Shown: positions 226 to 12,660 of the stretch, piece after piece
Position numbering within the stretch: position 1 is the stretch's first letter
How the letters are laid out: the number at the start of each line of letters is the position of its first letter
NCBI GenBank assembly: GCA_016188625.1
Contig: JACPHL010000038.1
Span: forward strand, 1 to 12,660
Length of the DNA stretch: 12,660 nucleotides
Direction of reading: 5' to 3'
Source: Candidatus Rokuibacteriota bacterium
Lineage (GTDB): Bacteria > Methylomirabilota > Methylomirabilia > Rokubacteriales > JACPHL01
Notes under the pieces: model-generated
The model's database searches: none
Told to the model about the DNA's origin: nothing
The model's input: the letters and a program-made list of their open reading frames with translations, nothing else
Program-made: the position numbers and the translations under genes

Positions 226-1110
226 ATGCCGCCGCTGACGCTCCCCATCCTGATCGAGCACCTCGCCAACGGCCTGGTGGTGGGGGCCTACTATGTGACG
301 CTGGCCCTCGGCCTCTCCCTCATCTTCGGGCTCGGCGGCGTCATCAACCTGGCGCACGGCGCCTTTTACGCCCTTGGCGCCTACCTGGCCCTGGAGGCGC
401 AACGCCTTCTGGGGTTCGGCGCCGCCCTGGCCATCTCCCCGTTCCTGGTGGCGCTTCTGGGCATGGGGATCGAGGCCGCCTTCCTCCGCCGGCTCTACCG
501 GAGTGACCCCCTCCTCGGCCTCCTCTTCACCTTCGGGCTCGCCATGGTGGGGGAGCAGCTCATCCGGATCGCCTGGGGCGCCACCGGCTACCCCTTCGAC
601 ATCCCGGGCGGGCTCCGGGGCTTCGTGACGCTGGGTGAGTTTATCTACTCCCGGTACCGGCTCTTCGTCATCGGCGTAACGGCCCTGGCCATCGCCGCCC
701 TCTGGCTGGCCCTCGAGAAGACCCCCTACGGAATGGTCGTCCGCGCCGGGACCCGGGACCCCGAGATGGTTCGCGCCCTGGGGATCAGCCTGCGCCCTGT
801 CCTCACCGCGGTCTTCGGGGCCGGGGTGGCCCTGGCCGGAATGGCCGGCGTCCTCTCCGCCCCCCTGGCGGGCGTCCACCCCGCCATGGGGACCGAGATC
901 GGTACGGCCGCCTTCGTGGTCGTGGTGATCGGGGGGCTGGGGAGCTTCTGGGGACCGGTCCTGGCAGGGCTCTTGGTGGGGGAGATCAGGAGCCTCACCG
1001 TCCTCTTCTGGCCGCCCGCCGCCGAGGCCTCGATGTACGCCCTGATGGCGCTGGTCCTGCTCCTCCGGCCCCGGGGGCTCCTCGGCGAGCGCTGGGAGCA
1101 GTTCGAATGA
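226..1110 (+). CDS. livH: Branched-chain amino acid ABC transporter permease LivH
   Basis: This 294-residue integral membrane protein is a normal length for LivH. It carries the family hallmarks: an N-terminal NGLVVGAYYVTLALGLSL helix, the segment VINLAHGAFYALGAYLA near residues 45-60, a cytoplasmic loop GTRDPEMVRALGI near 180 that corresponds to the contact site for the ATPases, and a glycine-rich stretch VVVVIGGLGSFWGPVLAGLL near 235-255. Hydrophobicity suggests about eight membrane spans. LivH pairs with LivM to form the transmembrane path for leucine, isoleucine, valine or related acids. The ATG at 226 follows a purine-rich GGAGGGCGGAG, and no better start is visible. The stop overlaps the livM ATG as ATGA, so translation is probably coupled. 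The reading frame is intact, unlike the next gene. Confidence 0.92.
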   Translation: MPPLTLPILIEHLANGLVVGAYYVTLALGLSLIFGLGGVINLAHGAFYALGAYLALEAQRLLGFGAALAISPFLVALLGMGIEAAFLRRLYRSDPLLGLLFTFGLAMVGEQLIRIAWGATGYPFDIPGGLRGFVTLGEFIYSRYRLFVIGVTALAIAALWLALEKTPYGMVVRAGTRDPEMVRALGISLRPVLTAVFGAGVALAGMAGVLSAPLAGVHPAMGTEIGTAAFVVVVIGGLGSFWGPVLAGLLVGEIRSLTVLFWPPAAEASMYALMALVLLLRPRGLLGERWEQFE

Positions 1111-1737
1111 CCACCCTCTGGCGCCACCCGCTGGTCGGCCTGGCCGCCGCCCTGCTGGTCCTCCCCTACGCCATGCCGTGGTTCGGGACCACCATCTCGG
1201 TGGCCACCGAGATCGCCATCTTTGCGCTGGTAGGGGTCGGCTTCAACCTCCTGCTGGGCTACACGGGGCTCCCGTCCTTTGGCCACGGCGCCTACTTCGG
1301 TTTGGCGGCCTACGCGGCGGCCTTGACCCAGATCCATCTCGTGAAGGGTTTCACGGTGCCGCTACTGGCCGGGGTGGCAACGGCGACCGCCCTGGGGGCG
1401 GTCCTGGGCCTGCTGATCCTCCGCCGCCGGGGCGTGTACTTCGCGCTCCTGACCCTGGCCTTCACCCAGATGTTCTTCTACATCGTCTACCGCTGGACGG
1501 CCGTCACCGGCGGCGAGAGCGGGCTCGGCGGGATCGTCCGCCCACGCCTCCCGGGCCTCGATCTCACCAATCAGCTCACTTACTACTACCTCGTGGCCGC
1601 GGTGGTCTTCGCCGGGACGCTGGTGGCCTGGCGGATCGTCCACGCGCCGTTCGGGACCGTGCTGCAGGCCATCCGCGAGAACGAGCGGCGGGCGGCGTTC
1701 GTCAGCTACGATGTCCAGCGCTACAAGTGGGCCGCGT
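1107..1737 (+). pseudogene. livM: LivM permease, N-terminal part, cut by a frame-shifting deletion
   Basis: The gene starts with ATG in the ATGA overlap with livH. About 210 residues in this frame are good LivM sequence: several membrane spans, the core GFNLLLGYTGLPSFGHGAYF near residues 45-65, GVYFALLTLAFTQMFFYIVY near 110-130, and the ATPase-contact loop AIRENERRAAFVSYDVQRYK near 190-208. After KWAA (1728-1736) this frame loses all similarity. LivM resumes one frame over at 1738 with LLKQFVYAEL. By family length about 15-17 residues of the following membrane helix are missing, and the lost length must be 2 modulo 3. As sequenced, no functional LivM can be made. The frame happens to stay open to 4892, so a naive gene caller would join it to the downstream dehydrogenase. 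It may be a true pseudogene or an assembly deletion. Confidence 0.8.
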
Positions 1738-2451
1738 CTCCTGAAGCAATTCGTCTATGCCGAGCTGGTGCATGTGACGATGTCCGGGGAGATCATGGCG
1801 ATGACGCTGGTGGGGGGGATGCGCCACTTCCTCGGGCCGGCGGTGGGCGCGGCCTTCTTCGTCCTTTTCCGGGAGGTGCTCACCAGCTACACCGAGAACT
1901 GGCTCCTCTACTTCGGCCTCCTCTTCATGGGCTTCGTGCTCTTCTCCCCCGACGGCATCCTCGGGATCCTCCGGCGGCTCCTCGCGCCCTTCCGCCCCGA
2001 GGTGGCCGAGCTGGCGGCGATGGCGGGCCGCGTGACGCCCAACCCGGGGCCGGACGAGCTCGGGTCGATCGGGGGAGAACCGCCGTCTCCGGGCGAGCTC
2101 TTGCTGGAGGCCCGCGGGGTCGTCAAGCGCTTCGGGGCCGTGGCAGCCGTGGACCGGGTCGACCTTCAGATCCGGGCTGGGGAACTGCGCGCCCTCATCG
2201 GCCCCAACGGCGCGGGGAAGACGACCCTGTTCAACCTGCTCTCCGGGCTCTTCCCGCCCGACGCGGGGGCCGTTGTCTTTCGCGGCCGCCCCATCACCGG
2301 CCTCACGGCCGACCGGATCGTGGCGCAGGGGGTGTCCCGTTCCTTCCAGATCCTGAGCATCTTCCAGGAGCTGACCGTCTTCGAGAACATCCGCCTGGCG
2401 GTCCAGGCCCGAAGCCCCAAGCGCTTCCACCTCTGGCGCCCCGCGGCGTAG
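1738..2451 (+). pseudogene. livG: LivM C-terminus fused to LivG N-terminal half, ended by in-frame TAG
   Basis: This frame resumes LivM (TMSGEIMAMTLVGGMRHFLG, then SYTENWLLYFGLLFMGFVLF and SPDGILGILRRL). It then runs with no stop into an ABC ATPase: LLLEARGVVKRFGAVAAVDR, Walker A GPNGAGKTT (2200-2226), and the LivG segment SRSFQILSIFQELTVFENIR. A possible internal start is the ATG at 2020, but there is no LivM stop, so the parent gene was probably a permease-ATPase fusion, an arrangement I recall in this transporter family. The frame is ended by TAG at 2449-2451, after FHLWRPAA. The same frame continues at once with EINRETQEILRRVGLEG, normal LivG sequence, so the TAG is most simply a point change in one gene. 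The truncated ATPase lacks the signature motif and Walker B. Confidence 0.78.
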
Positions 2452-3588
2452 GAGATCAATCGCGAGACCCAGGAGATCCTCCGCCGGGTGGGCCTGGAGG
2501 GGGTCGAGTCGGCCCCGGCCTCCAGCCTCTCCCACGGTGGCCAGCGCCTGCTGGAGATCGGGATCGCCCTGGCCACGCGCCCCACGGTCCTCCTCCTGGA
2601 CGAGCCGCTGGCCGGGCTCTCCTCGGCCGAACGGGAACGGATCGCCGCCTTCATCAAGGCCCTCGCGAAGACGGTGACCGTCGTCCTCATCGAGCACGAC
2701 ATCGACCGGGTCCTGGCCCTGAGCGACCGGATCACGGTTCTCCACCTCGGCCGGGTCATCGCCGATGGGCCGCCGGCCGAGATCCAGGAACATCCCGACG
2801 TCCGGGCGGCCTACCTGGGGGCAGGCAGGGCCCGCGTGAGCCTGCCCCCGGCCCTCCCCCTGGCGCCCCGGAGGGCCGCGCCTCTTCTCCGGCTCGATCG
2901 GGTGGATACGTTCTATGGGAAGAGCCATATCCTCCACGCGGTCTCCCTCGAAGTGGGGCCCGGGGAGGTCGTGGCCCTGCTGGGCCGGAACGGGGCCGGG
3001 AAGACCGCCACACTCAACACCATCATGGGCCTCAGGTCGCCACGGCGCGGGAGCATCCGCTTCCGCGACCGAGAGATCGCCGGCGAGCCGCCAGAACGGA
3101 TCGCGCGCCTGGGGATCGGCCTGGCCCCTCAGGGCCGCCGGGTCTTCCCCAACCTCACCGTGGCCGAGAACCTCCTGATCGGCCGGCTGGCCCGCGACCG
3201 ACGATCGGCAGGCGATCGCCGGGACGAGGAGCTCGTCGGCCAGCGCTTCCCCTCGCTTCAGGCCCACTGGCGGTCGCGGGGGGAGACCCTCTCCGGCGGC
3301 GAGCTCCAGATGCTGGCCATCGCCCGGGCCCTGGTGGGGCGCGTCGAGCTCTTGCTGCTGGACGAGCCGTTCGAGGGGCTGGCCCCGGCGGTGGTGGAGG
3401 AGGTCTTCCGAACGGTGGCGAGCCTTCGCGGGGAGACGGCGATCCTCCTGGTGGAGCACAATCTCGACGTGGCCCTGGCCCTGTCGGACCGGGTCTACGT
3501 CCTCGACCGCGGAACGGTCACCCACACGGGCGCGGCTCGGGAACTGCTGGAGGACCTGGATCTCAGGGCGCGGGTGCTCCGGTTCTGA
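2452..3588 (+). pseudogene. livF: LivG C-terminal half fused to a complete LivF ATPase domain
   Basis: This is the same frame as the preceding segment. It first completes LivG: signature LSHGGQ (about 2527-2544), Walker B TVLLLDEPLAGL (about 2584-2619), and H-loop VVLIEHDID (about 2680-2706). A linker follows after HPDVRAAYLG. A second, complete ABC domain of LivF type starts near 2881: LLRLDRVDTFYG, Walker A GRNGAGKT, GLAPQGRRVFPNLTVAENLL, signature LSGGELQMLAIARAL, Walker B LLLLDEPFEGL, H-loop LLVEHNLDV. There is no stop or gene boundary between the two domains, so LivG and LivF form one polypeptide. The first ATG after the TAG is at 2488; a GTG at 2836 could give LivF alone. LivF may still be expressed, but without intact LivM and LivG the importer cannot be complete. 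The stop overlaps nothing and is 8 bases before the next possible start. Confidence 0.78.
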
Positions 3589-8095: not shown

Positions 8096-9814
8096 TTAGC
8101 CGAGGGGGAGATCGCGCGAGAAGATCGTGAAGTGGGAGCGGCGGGTCTCGGCGAGGGCCTCCTCGAGCTGCCGCTTGCCGCGCTGGGCCTGCGGGATGAC
8201 GGCCTCGAAGAACCTCGTGTAGAAGTGGTCGGGCTCGACGACCACCCGGGCCCGGAGCCGGAGCCCGGGGCGGTCGATCTTCCGGCTGTACCGCATGGCG
8301 AAGCTCGCCTTCGGGGCCAGGCGCGTGTCGTAGAGCTCGCGGGAGAGGTCGAGGGTCGCCTCCCGGCCGATCACCGCCTCCTCGAGGCTCTCCGGGACCG
8401 GCTGCCCCTCGGCGTCCACCAGCTCCATCCGGACGAAGACCTTGGGGGTGAGGTAGGTGGGGAAGGAGTGGCCCGCGCCCGTGTTGGTCACCGTCAGGAC
8501 CGCCCGGACGGTCTCGCCGGGGCGGTAGCGGGGCCTGTCGGTCTTGAGGTCGATCGTGACCGCCCGCTTCACCATCTCCGGGTCGTGGATCCCCCGCCAG
8601 AGGTGGCGGCGGTCCGGCATGTGGCAGTCCTGGCACTGGACCCCCTCGCGCGCATAGGGGCTCGCCCGCCACTCCTCGTAGGTGTTCTCCAGGAGCTTGC
8701 CGTTGAGCGCATAGCCGTCGGGCGGGAACTGGTGGCACTCCTTGCAGAACTCCGAGCGGAGGAAGGCCGGGGTCCGGGTCGCCCCGTGGTGGGGGAGCTG
8801 CTCGCGCGGCGCCGCGCCCTCGAGGCTCCCGTCCCGCTTCGGGGGCCCGAACCGCTGCCACTCCCGGACGTGGCAGGCCGCGCAGACGAGCCCCTGCGCC
8901 TTTAGGGCGCGGTCGAAGGCGCGGTTCGCCCTGAAGGCCGTCCGGCCGGCGGCGGTCCGCTCGACCCTCGGGAGCTGCTCGGTGAGCGGGGCGTGGCAGC
9001 TCTGGCAGTGGATCGCGGTCGCGGGGTCGGTGCGGTACATGTCCACGAGCTGACCCATGACCCCGGGGCCCATCGCCTTGGCGTGGAGGCTCGTCTTCCA
9101 CTCCTCGAGCTGGGCAGGATGGCAGGCGCCGCAGCTCGCCGGGTCGAGGGAGGCCTCGAGCGGATTCCACCCGGCCGGGGGCTTCCCCTGGAGCGGGATC
9201 GGCCGCTGCCAGTGGCGCTCGAGGAACGCCGCGACGGCCGCCTCGGGCCCGGCCGGTTCCGCGGGGCGTGCCGGGGCGGCCGCCACGGTCCGGCCCAGGA
9301 GGCCCGCGAAGAGCTGGCGGGCGGGCGACGAGTCCCACTCCCGGGGGCCGACGACCCGGGCGAGCATGCGCCCCTCGCGGTCGAGGATCACCGTGGTGGG
9401 GATGAAGCGGACCCCGTAGCGGTCGCTCACCTCGGCGTCGGGGTCGAGCGCGACGCGGAAGGTCAGGCCGTGCTCCCGCATGAAGGCCGCCACCGGCTCC
9501 CGGCGCTCCTGGAAGTTCACCGCGAGGAGCACGAGCCCCTGGTCCCCGAACTCCCGGTGGAGGCGCTCCATGGACGGCATCTCGTCCCGGCAGGCCGGAC
9601 ACCAGGTGGCCCAGAAGTTCAGGAAGACGATCCGGCCGCGGAGGTCGCGGAGGCTGACCGCGCGCCCCGCGAGATCCTCGAGGGTGAACTCCGGGACCGG
9701 GCGTGGCGGGTCCAGGCGCCGGAGCTGGAAGGCTTTGAAAAGGTCCTCGGCGCCGGTGCCGGCGGCCACGAGGGTGAGGAGGAGCCCGACCAGGAGCCCG
9801 GGGCGCCAGCGCAT
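8096..9814 (-). CDS. Exported thioredoxin (TlpA/ResA-like)-pentaheme cytochrome c fusion
   Basis: The protein has 572 residues. A signal peptide (PGLLVGLLLTLVAAGTGA) is followed by a TlpA-type thioredoxin domain, about residues 38-175: FTLEDLAGRAVSLRDL, then FLNFWATWCPAC with C72 and C75, and the cis-proline loop RFIPTTVILD. After a Pro/Ala-rich linker comes a multiheme region with five CxxCH sites: C228 (CGACH), C270 (CQSCH), C311 (CAACH), C357 (CKECH) and C394 (CQDCH). The remaining part, from about 410, is beta-rich and includes VTNTGAGHSFPTYL. A GHxFPT motif occurs near the C-terminal domain of many multiheme cytochromes, and its His may bind a heme. The product should work in the periplasm, passing electrons between hemes and a disulfide or another partner. 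The fusion is in one uninterrupted frame. The ATG at 9814 lacks a clear ribosome site. Confidence 0.85.
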   Translation of the reverse strand: MRWRPGLLVGLLLTLVAAGTGAEDLFKAFQLRRLDPPRPVPEFTLEDLAGRAVSLRDLRGRIVFLNFWATWCPACRDEMPSMERLHREFGDQGLVLLAVNFQERREPVAAFMREHGLTFRVALDPDAEVSDRYGVRFIPTTVILDREGRMLARVVGPREWDSSPARQLFAGLLGRTVAAAPARPAEPAGPEAAVAAFLERHWQRPIPLQGKPPAGWNPLEASLDPASCGACHPAQLEEWKTSLHAKAMGPGVMGQLVDMYRTDPATAIHCQSCHAPLTEQLPRVERTAAGRTAFRANRAFDRALKAQGLVCAACHVREWQRFGPPKRDGSLEGAAPREQLPHHGATRTPAFLRSEFCKECHQFPPDGYALNGKLLENTYEEWRASPYAREGVQCQDCHMPDRRHLWRGIHDPEMVKRAVTIDLKTDRPRYRPGETVRAVLTVTNTGAGHSFPTYLTPKVFVRMELVDAEGQPVPESLEEAVIGREATLDLSRELYDTRLAPKASFAMRYSRKIDRPGLRLRARVVVEPDHFYTRFFEAVIPQAQRGKRQLEEALAETRRSHFTIFSRDLPLG

Positions 9815-9861: not shown

Positions 9862-10803
9862 TCAGCGGACCGCGACCCCGTGGGGCCTCCGCCCCACCGG
9901 GAGCCGCACGCGGACCGTCCCCGTCGCCGCCTCGACGATCACCACCTCATCCTGCCCCTCGCTCACCACGTAGGCCAGCCGGCCGTCGGGGCTGAAGGCG
10001 ATGTGGTGGGGGAACTGCCCGACCTGGATCGTCCGGATCCGGCGGCGGGCGGCGACGTCGAAGACCGTCACCTCGCCGCCGCCGTGGTTCGAGACCCAGG
10101 CCTGGCGCCCGTCCGGGGTGATGGCGATGTGGTGCGGGGTCTCCCCGGCCTCGACCTCGCCGATCACCTGGCGCCCGGGGGCGTCGAGGACGAGGACGCG
10201 GCGCGACTTCCAGAGGGTCACCCAGAGCTGGCGGCCGTCCGGGGTGAAGGCCAGGTCGTGGGGGGTCCCCGCGACGGCCACCCGGTCGACGCGCTCGGGA
10301 TCCTCGAGATTCATCACGAGGAGATGGCGGGCGCCCAGGGTCGTCAGCCAGGCCTCCGGCCGGGTCGGGGCGACCGCGACGTTGTGGGGCGGCGACGGCA
10401 GGCTCACGTGCCGGACGAGGTCGAGCGTGGCGGCGTCGAAGAGCGCGAGCCCGGAGCCGGCCTCGTAGGCGACCAGGGCGCGGCGCCCGTCGGGGGTCAG
10501 GGCGAGGCCGTGGGGGCCCTGGCCGGGGGTGGCGAGGGAGCGCACCTCCCGCGAGGCGAGGTCCACGACCCAGACCCGCGTGGCCGAGGAGTCGGTGATC
10601 CACGCCTGCCGGCCGTCGGGGCTCACCGCCAGGTTGTGCGGGCGCCCGCCGAGGCGGATCGCCTCGACCTTCCCATCCGGCTCGACGACGGCCAGCTCGC
10701 CCGCGCCCTCGACGGTGACGACGACGCGCGGCCCGGCCGCCCAGCCCGGGCTGACCGATGACGCGGCGAGCCCCGCCACGAGCGCGATGAGCAGGATGAC
10801 CAT
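9862..10803 (-). CDS. Secreted YVTN/NHL-type seven-bladed beta-propeller protein
   Basis: The protein has 313 residues: an N-terminal signal peptide (VILLIALVAGLAASSVSPGWA) and then a propeller filling the rest. Each repeat carries a PH-x-(L/I/V)-A-(V/L/I/F)-(S/T)-PDGR-x-(A/L)-(W/Y) motif. The His of the PH pair falls at residues 56, 98, 140, 182, 224, 266 and 308, an exact 42-residue period. The third repeat has a degenerate PDGR (APTRPEAW), and the last PH-GVAV is at the C-terminus, so it would close the ring with the N-terminal strands. Such proteins bind ligands or partners on the propeller face or act as scaffolds; no catalytic function can be assigned. The ATG at 10803 has a TAGAAT six bases upstream and no Shine-Dalgarno. 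The gene lies 47 bases before the thioredoxin-cytochrome gene on the same strand. Confidence 0.85.
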   Translation of the reverse strand: MVILLIALVAGLAASSVSPGWAAGPRVVVTVEGAGELAVVEPDGKVEAIRLGGRPHNLAVSPDGRQAWITDSSATRVWVVDLASREVRSLATPGQGPHGLALTPDGRRALVAYEAGSGLALFDAATLDLVRHVSLPSPPHNVAVAPTRPEAWLTTLGARHLLVMNLEDPERVDRVAVAGTPHDLAFTPDGRQLWVTLWKSRRVLVLDAPGRQVIGEVEAGETPHHIAITPDGRQAWVSNHGGGEVTVFDVAARRRIRTIQVGQFPHHIAFSPDGRLAYVVSEGQDEVVIVEAATGTVRVRLPVGRRPHGVAVR

Positions 10804-11976: not shown

Positions 11977-12524
11977 CTACTCGTTCTCGAAGTCGAAGGT
12001 GAGGGTGAGCGGCGTCTCGGGGCGGGCGATGACGACCGTCACGGTGTAGCGGCCCTTCTCGGGCAGGCCGATGTTTGCCCCGTAGCTCCCCGGCATGGGC
12101 ATGAGCTTCACCGTCCTGGTCACCCCACCCTTCAGGGCGGTCAAGGTAACCTGCAGGCCCTGGACTACTCCGTCCGTTTTCGCGTCGGTATCAGGCCCCC
12201 CATCCCCTGCATGCCGCCCATGCCTGGCATCATCCGCTGCATCGCCTCGGGCGACAGGGGCGGGGCGGAGAGGAGGGTCACCTCCAGGCCGCCGGCTTGC
12301 TTCGTCCCGTGCTCGGTGGGTTCACGCCCAGCCGGAGGCGGCGCCTTCCGCTCAGGCGCCATTCCCCCCATGCCGCCCATCTGCGCCATCATCTGAGCGC
12401 ACATCTGCATCATCTCACCCGTGGGCTGCGGCATCACCGGGCCTCTCGTCCCCTGAGCGGCGCCAGCGCCGGCCGCCCCCAGGACCAGGAGCCCGGCGAG
12501 CCCCGCGGCAAGCTTCCCCTTCAT
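11977..12524 (-). pseudogene. Met-rich exported protein, frameshifted at a G run
   Basis: The ATG at 12524 has GGAGGAGG about 7 bases upstream. A signal peptide (KLAAGLAGLLVLGAAGAGA) is followed by a Met cluster (EMMQMCAQMMAQMGGMGGM, residues 37-55), then GLEVTLLSAPPLSPEAM and a second Met cluster near 95-108. The frame then stops at 12165 after IPTRKRTE. In another frame the sequence carries straight on, with DGVVQGLQVTLTALKGG, TRTVKLMPMPGSYGANIGLP and KGRYTVTVVIARPETPLTLT, to a TAG at 11979-11977. One extra G in the six-G run (12196-12201) would restore one frame of 182 residues. The beta-rich end resembles small envelope domains of the FixH/YtkA kind. Met clusters often bind copper; that is inferred. 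It may be a real mutation, a slippage switch or a sequencing error. The MerR gene starts 36 bases later. Confidence 0.68.
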
Positions 12525-12660
12525 GGTCTTCCTCCTCCACCCTTGCTCCATCTGACTCCACGCACTGAACAAAACTCGCCCTTGTGGCATCGGGTGAAAG
12601 CACCACATTGGGAAGTGGGGAACCGGTCGGTTTTTCCATCACCTTCAAGCGTTGATTAGC
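12525..12660. other. Upstream region of the Met-rich gene, no gene seen
   Basis: These 136 bases are visibly less GC-rich than the rest. They hold the GGAGGAGG ribosome site (about 12531-12538) of the Met-rich gene. I could not find a convincing -35/-10 pair on the minus strand. A 4-5 bp stem, AACC-GGTC-GGTT (12621-12632), is followed by Ts on the plus strand but ends no known gene. Short open frames here have no recognisable protein features. Confidence 0.4.

Follow-up and report, generated by a model that had tools for sequence, protein, structure and literature searches.

A TlpA-like thioredoxin domain joined in one reading frame to a pentaheme cytochrome in Methylomirabilota

INTRODUCTION

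The CxxCH disulfides of apocytochromes are reduced by ResA/CcmG proteins (PMC3884852), which belong to the TlpA/ResA/CcmG (DsbE) group of periplasmic thioredoxin-fold proteins. On the cytochrome side, an Ig-like domain has been described for the ExtKL-like pentaheme cytochromes (the PHC group), and cable-bacteria members of this group carry fusions to truncated haemoglobin (PMC11976967). In MccSep and ExtKL a selenocysteine lies just after a GHxxP motif, in the cytochrome itself. ExtKL has been suggested to act in selenite reduction (PMC5877670), and no established reaction for ExtKL-like pentaheme cytochromes was found in the open-access literature.

We analyzed a stretch of DNA of 12,660 nucleotides (hereafter the window), in which a preliminary description had noted a TlpA-like domain and a five-heme cytochrome in one chain, its author being aware of no characterised protein with this layout. 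No described TlpA-multiheme fusion turned up in the open-access literature either, an absence that counts as weak evidence because it covers open-access literature and limited sequence searches. The searches took in 95 Methylomirabilota genomes, 24 Nitrospinota genomes, 13 other single genomes, and the best 80 loci of one genome-wide scan; genome completeness was mixed, with the genome that holds the window at 84%.

RESULTS

The fusion gene is an open reading frame of 572 aa without internal stop at positions 8096 to 9814, coordinates that the preliminary description had given correctly but without a strand; it is read on the minus strand, from 9814 to 8096, and all features of the gene given below lie on that strand. 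It encodes a predicted exported two-module redox protein with a TlpA/ResA-type dithiol domain, a variable linker, a five-heme ExtKL-like cytochrome, and a C-terminal Ig-like domain. The open reading frame, Pfam matches and motifs bear out the earlier claim of a complete TlpA-like domain, a WCPAC motif, and five CxxCH motifs in one predicted exported chain. A putative Sec-type signal peptide (residues 1-22, positions 9749-9814) was assigned by eye from its positive n-region and hydrophobic core.

The thioredoxin-fold domain spans residues 36-176 (positions 9287-9709) and was identified by Pfam AhpC-TSA (3.3e-29, residues 39-149) and Redoxin (2.4e-25), which together span residues 39-163, and by ResA/TlpA structures in both sequence and fold. 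ResA chains in the PDB match the first part of the fusion at about 1e-29, and the predicted fold of this part, with an AlphaFold pLDDT of about 88-98 over residues 31-170, aligns with ResA at a TM-score of about 0.89 by target length in Foldseek, where all of the matches listed for the fusion model fall on the TlpA domain. The WCPAC active site (residues 71-75, positions 9590-9604) holds C72 and C75 and is the same in the two other fusions found, while E78 aligns with Glu80 of ResA and P140 with its cis-Pro, both being kept. The domain thus shares with TlpA/ResA/CcmG proteins the thioredoxin fold, the WCxxC motif, and the Glu and cis-Pro near the active site, and differs from them in its tethered pentaheme cytochrome and in its NCBIfam scores, which lie below the cut-offs for ResA (117 of 170 bits), TlpA (91 of 230), and DsbE (65 of 123). 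Judged by these scores, it is best classed as a superfamily member that is not assignable to one named ResA/TlpA/DsbE subfamily.

The Ala/Pro-rich linker (residues 177-191, positions 9242-9286) is 33-47% identical among the fusions, compared with 62-83% in the domains, and AlphaFold confidence drops from about residue 181. The cytochrome domain that follows (residues 192-415, positions 8570-9241) gives weak Pfam multiheme cytochrome matches after residue 220 and contains the motifs CGACH (residue 228, positions 9119-9133), CQSCH (residue 270, positions 8993-9007), CAACH (residue 311, positions 8870-8884), CKECH (residue 357, positions 8732-8746), and CQDCH (residue 394, positions 8621-8635). 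Five CxxCH motifs are present in every full-length homologue examined and would each be expected to attach a heme. Six histidines outside the motifs are invariant in a 22-sequence alignment and could be enough for the distal heme ligands. The chain has no cysteines other than C72, C75, and the ten heme cysteines. The C-terminal part (residues 416-571, positions 8102-8569) is beta-rich in the AlphaFold model, with parts at pLDDT over 90, and its strands fit the Ig-like domain reported from ExtKL-like pentaheme cytochromes; the model is reliable only in the TlpA part and in these strands, the cytochrome core having a pLDDT under 50 over much of its length.

Against solved structures, the family profile of the cytochrome half matched MccSep best (9wt8, 1e-14), followed by cytochrome c552 of Thermochromatium tepidum (5ze8, 6e-12), and the fusion matched NCBIfam ExtKL (NF040886) with an E value of 4e-18 at 65.2 bits, the cut-off being 250. 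It shares with ExtKL, MccSep, and the PHC group (PMC11976967) five CxxCH motifs in similar order, a GHxxP motif, and an Ig-like C-terminal part, and differs in its N-terminal TlpA domain, the cable-bacteria members carrying truncated haemoglobin instead. The GHSFPT motif (positions 8456-8473) keeps the conserved His beside the place of the selenocysteine of MccSep/ExtKL, whereas the residue at or beside that place is Leu or Val, with no TGA codon and no Cys. With five CxxCH motifs, a predicted Ig-like part, and a sequence relation to ExtKL and c552, the half falls within the pentaheme group and is filed, from its sequence, as a distant relative without selenocysteine, because GHSFPT is kept while Leu or Val stands at the selenocysteine place and the ExtKL cut-off is missed. 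ExtKL itself was rejected on the score below cut-off and the missing selenocysteine. The heme-motif regions of c552 are partly alignable with the fusion, but this relation is distant and takes in no thioredoxin domain. The pentaheme nitrite reductase NrfA shows weak local similarity around the heme motifs and was likewise rejected, as all five motifs of the fusion are CxxCH, none is CxxCK, and the alignment is local only.

The search of 95 genomes across the class found the fusion over its whole length (residues 5-571) in two besides that of the window, here called G082 and G083, at 65-67% identity, so that it is retained in three genomes from two families. Joining of two genes by a frameshift or an assembly chimera had been a concern, the more so as plus-strand ABC-transporter genes on the same contig appear frameshifted. 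The same fused frame runs through the linker in both other assemblies at this divergence, and standalone cytochromes start with their own signal peptide, of which there is none at the fusion junction; an artefact was therefore rejected as extremely improbable, and the two ways in which the preliminary description could have failed, homologues always split in two genes or a frameshift at the linker, are both answered by G082 and G083. Purifying selection acts on both halves, with dN/dS between G082 and G083 (NG86) of 0.14 for the TlpA part and, in the cytochrome half, of 0.20 for one part and 0.13 for the other; linker identity between the two genomes is 39%. In a tree of 51 TlpAs the fused domains cluster as one group (97/92), and the cytochrome parts of the fusions cluster together with a second, standalone G083 copy (99/99), whose place within this group is poorly supported (91/44). 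On the simplest reading of the trees, the fusion would have arisen by one event.

The cytochrome family is present in 71 of the 95 Methylomirabilota genomes (a few as short fragments), usually as a standalone gene, and standalone homologues at 41-47% identity occur in 11 of the 24 Nitrospinota genomes, with no strong TlpA seen adjoining the homologue in any of these 11. The standalone loci that were read in the order of the fusion have a signal peptide of their own, by eye, and none has a TlpA gene just upstream in that order, some short contigs leaving little upstream DNA. Some 50 related cytochromes, the second one of G083 among them, have no linked TlpA. In one subgroup (L125, L128, L139, L178, L179) the standalone cytochrome lies near MoxR-AAA, DUF58, and glycosyltransferase genes, and in several genomes a DUF302 protein adjoins it. 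From the TlpA side, no multiheme cytochrome was in frame with the closest TlpA relatives among the best 80 loci of the genome-wide scan. An Anaerolineae frame of 505 aa (L080:6489-8003) matches TlpA and contains a single CxxCH, possibly a further combination of TlpA with a cytochrome, and two TlpA domains lie close on one strand, as possible tandem pairs, in the Tectomicrobia/Nitrospinota loci L033, L063, and L077.

A second form of the association was found in the Methylomirabilis-like genomes, where a TlpA gene lies just upstream of the cytochrome on the same strand in 6 of 14 (G022, G024, G025, G026, G028, and G029), the other eight being without it. Roughly 145 to 300 bases separate the domain matches of the six pairs, the gap between reading frames being about 80 bases in the pair at L131. 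In all six TlpA genes (L131:6919-7572; also L123, L130, L141, L142, and L241) an in-frame TGA replaces the codon of the first active-site Cys, giving WUGYC, WUPFC, or WUPHC, and because of this the products are probable selenoproteins; one Methylomirabilota genome has been reported to have 63 genes for predicted selenoproteins (PMC13188914). These TlpAs form a clade separate from the fused ones (100/100 in the tree of 51 sequences); the fused TlpA may derive from them, or the two associations may have arisen independently. More TlpA-like paralogues with an in-frame TGA occur in the genome of the window on contigs C36 and C131 (L005, L008, L010), several TlpA genes being crowded on C36.

TlpA thus partners the cytochrome in two ways, fused to it in one lineage and encoded next to it in another, and the three fusions and six operon-like pairs support a functional tie between the two. 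The interpretation given in the preliminary description, direct dithiol-heme electron exchange or self-maturation, is supported in part. An accidental fusion, in which the halves act independently and the tether merely co-localises them, would fit the variable linker, the small number of fusions, and the mostly separate homologues; it is improbable in view of the purifying selection on both halves, of the persistence of the fusion across a divergence to 65-67% identity, and of the pairing in another lineage.

The main rival to a role of the dithiol in the mature protein is self-maturation, in which the fused TlpA would reduce disulfides among the ten heme cysteines in its chain before Ccm heme attachment and have no later role. 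The known action of ResA/CcmG proteins on apocytochrome CxxCH disulfides (PMC3884852), the retained subfamily Glu and cis-Pro, and, in some of the Methylomirabilis-like genomes, the adjoining TlpA gene speak for it. The genome of the window, however, has a ccm gene cluster of its own with two cytochrome-assembly (CcmF/CcmC-type) proteins and a CcmG-like TlpA, together with CcmB, CcmE, CcmH, and CcmI by eye, and contig C197 carries a CcdA-family gene that adjoins another TlpA. A stoichiometric reductant in cis would also be wasteful, and the roughly 50 unlinked cytochromes, the second G083 copy among them, do without one. Self-maturation is weakened by the ccm cluster with its CcmG and by the lack of a fused or adjacent TlpA in most homologues, and we regard it as doubtful. 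The CcmG-like protein of the cluster (L276:3961-4488, minus strand) has a CxxxC motif (WCYPAC) rather than CxxC.

Upstream of the fusion, after a gap of 47 nt on the same strand, lies a YVTN/lactonase-like beta-propeller gene (positions 9862-10803, minus strand) that is possibly co-transcribed with it; no such gene was found beside the G082 and G083 fusions. The surrounding region of the window has MerR and cation-efflux genes. A small Met-rich exported-looking protein (MMQMCAQMMAQMGGMGGM; positions 12168-12608, minus strand), possibly metal-binding, is encoded near MerR. At positions 1107-3588 of the plus strand, livM, livG, and livF of a branched-chain amino-acid ABC transporter are split between frames at about 1711-1744 and 2451-2488, which looks like frameshift or mis-assembly. 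A CtaG gene lies upstream of the G082 fusion. In G083, the end of the fusion gene, with its stop codon, is overlapped by a second TlpA gene. Upstream of that fusion lie a small membrane protein and a DsbD_2/ArsG-like fragment of a membrane protein; the DsbD_2 match of this fragment is below the Pfam cut-off, and its nearest NCBIfam family is an arsenical permease. G082 and G083 share a downstream exported-looking protein without Pfam match and with HAHV and GFGCG motifs (L092:45-710, L121:2225-3001). Apart from this protein the neighbours differ among the three genomes; a conserved operon was thus rejected, no operon-based function was drawn, and the contexts, which hint at thiol or metal chemistry, were given little weight because they disagree.

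These neighbourhoods bear on a role in metal or oxidase assembly, in which TlpA would reduce the cysteines of another protein, for instance a copper site or chaperone, while the cytochrome would supply electrons or serve as an anchor. Mixed disulfides of Bradyrhizobium TlpA, whose fold matches, with ScoI and with subunit II of the oxidase are known (PDB 4txo, 4txv) and speak for this role, as do CtaG in G082, a multicopper oxidase gene near the G083 fusion, and, in the window, the upstream MerR and cation-efflux genes. The three genomes have different neighbours, no Sco gene was seen beside a fusion, and the metal context may be coincidence; this role is rather unlikely, though less so than an accidental fusion.

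DISCUSSION

The TlpA-pentaheme fusion is a real new domain architecture built from known families. Our preferred reading, which falls a little short of probable, is that of an exported two-module redox protein whose dithiol works on the cytochrome once it is mature, or on a docked partner. Electrons would move between C72/C75 and the chain of hemes, thereby coupling envelope thiol/disulfide (or sulfur- or selenium-compound) chemistry to a heme wire. Heme carries one electron at a time whereas thiol-disulfide exchange moves two, a mismatch that the five-heme chain could buffer. The exchange is inferred, and the electrons might flow either way.

A role in the mature protein is favored because a one-to-one reductant left idle after maturation would be wasteful. 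Dithiol-heme exchange is further backed by the keeping of the fusions and the operon pairs with their TGA codons; by the intact Cys pair, Glu, and cis-Pro, the low dN/dS of the TlpA half (0.14), the six invariant His, and the lack of surplus cysteines; and by the second TlpA and the DsbD_2/ArsG-like fragment that adjoin the G083 fusion and the selenocysteine that MccSep and ExtKL carry in the cytochrome. Against it, ResA/CcmG-type domains are best known as apocytochrome reductants and not as exchangers of electrons with heme; no structure puts the dithiol near a heme, the modelled cytochrome core being unreliable; most family members have no linked TlpA, so their hemes work without one; and the DsbD_2 match upstream in G083 is a fragment below cut-off.

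More tentatively, the protein may be a thiol-to-heme transducer, in which an envelope dithiol pool is wired into a pentaheme chain through a thioredoxin module with Cys, or probably selenocysteine in the Methylomirabilis-like genomes, linking disulfide chemistry with respiration or extracellular electron transfer; ExtKL with its built-in selenocysteine would then follow the same principle without a thioredoxin domain.

Should maturation alone prove true, the fusion would be the first tethered apocytochrome reductase to our knowledge. It offers a single polypeptide on which electron exchange between thiols and hemes can be measured. ExtKL-like pentaheme cytochromes occur widely, and their recurring TlpA partner, by fusion or by adjacency, points to thiol or selenol chemistry.
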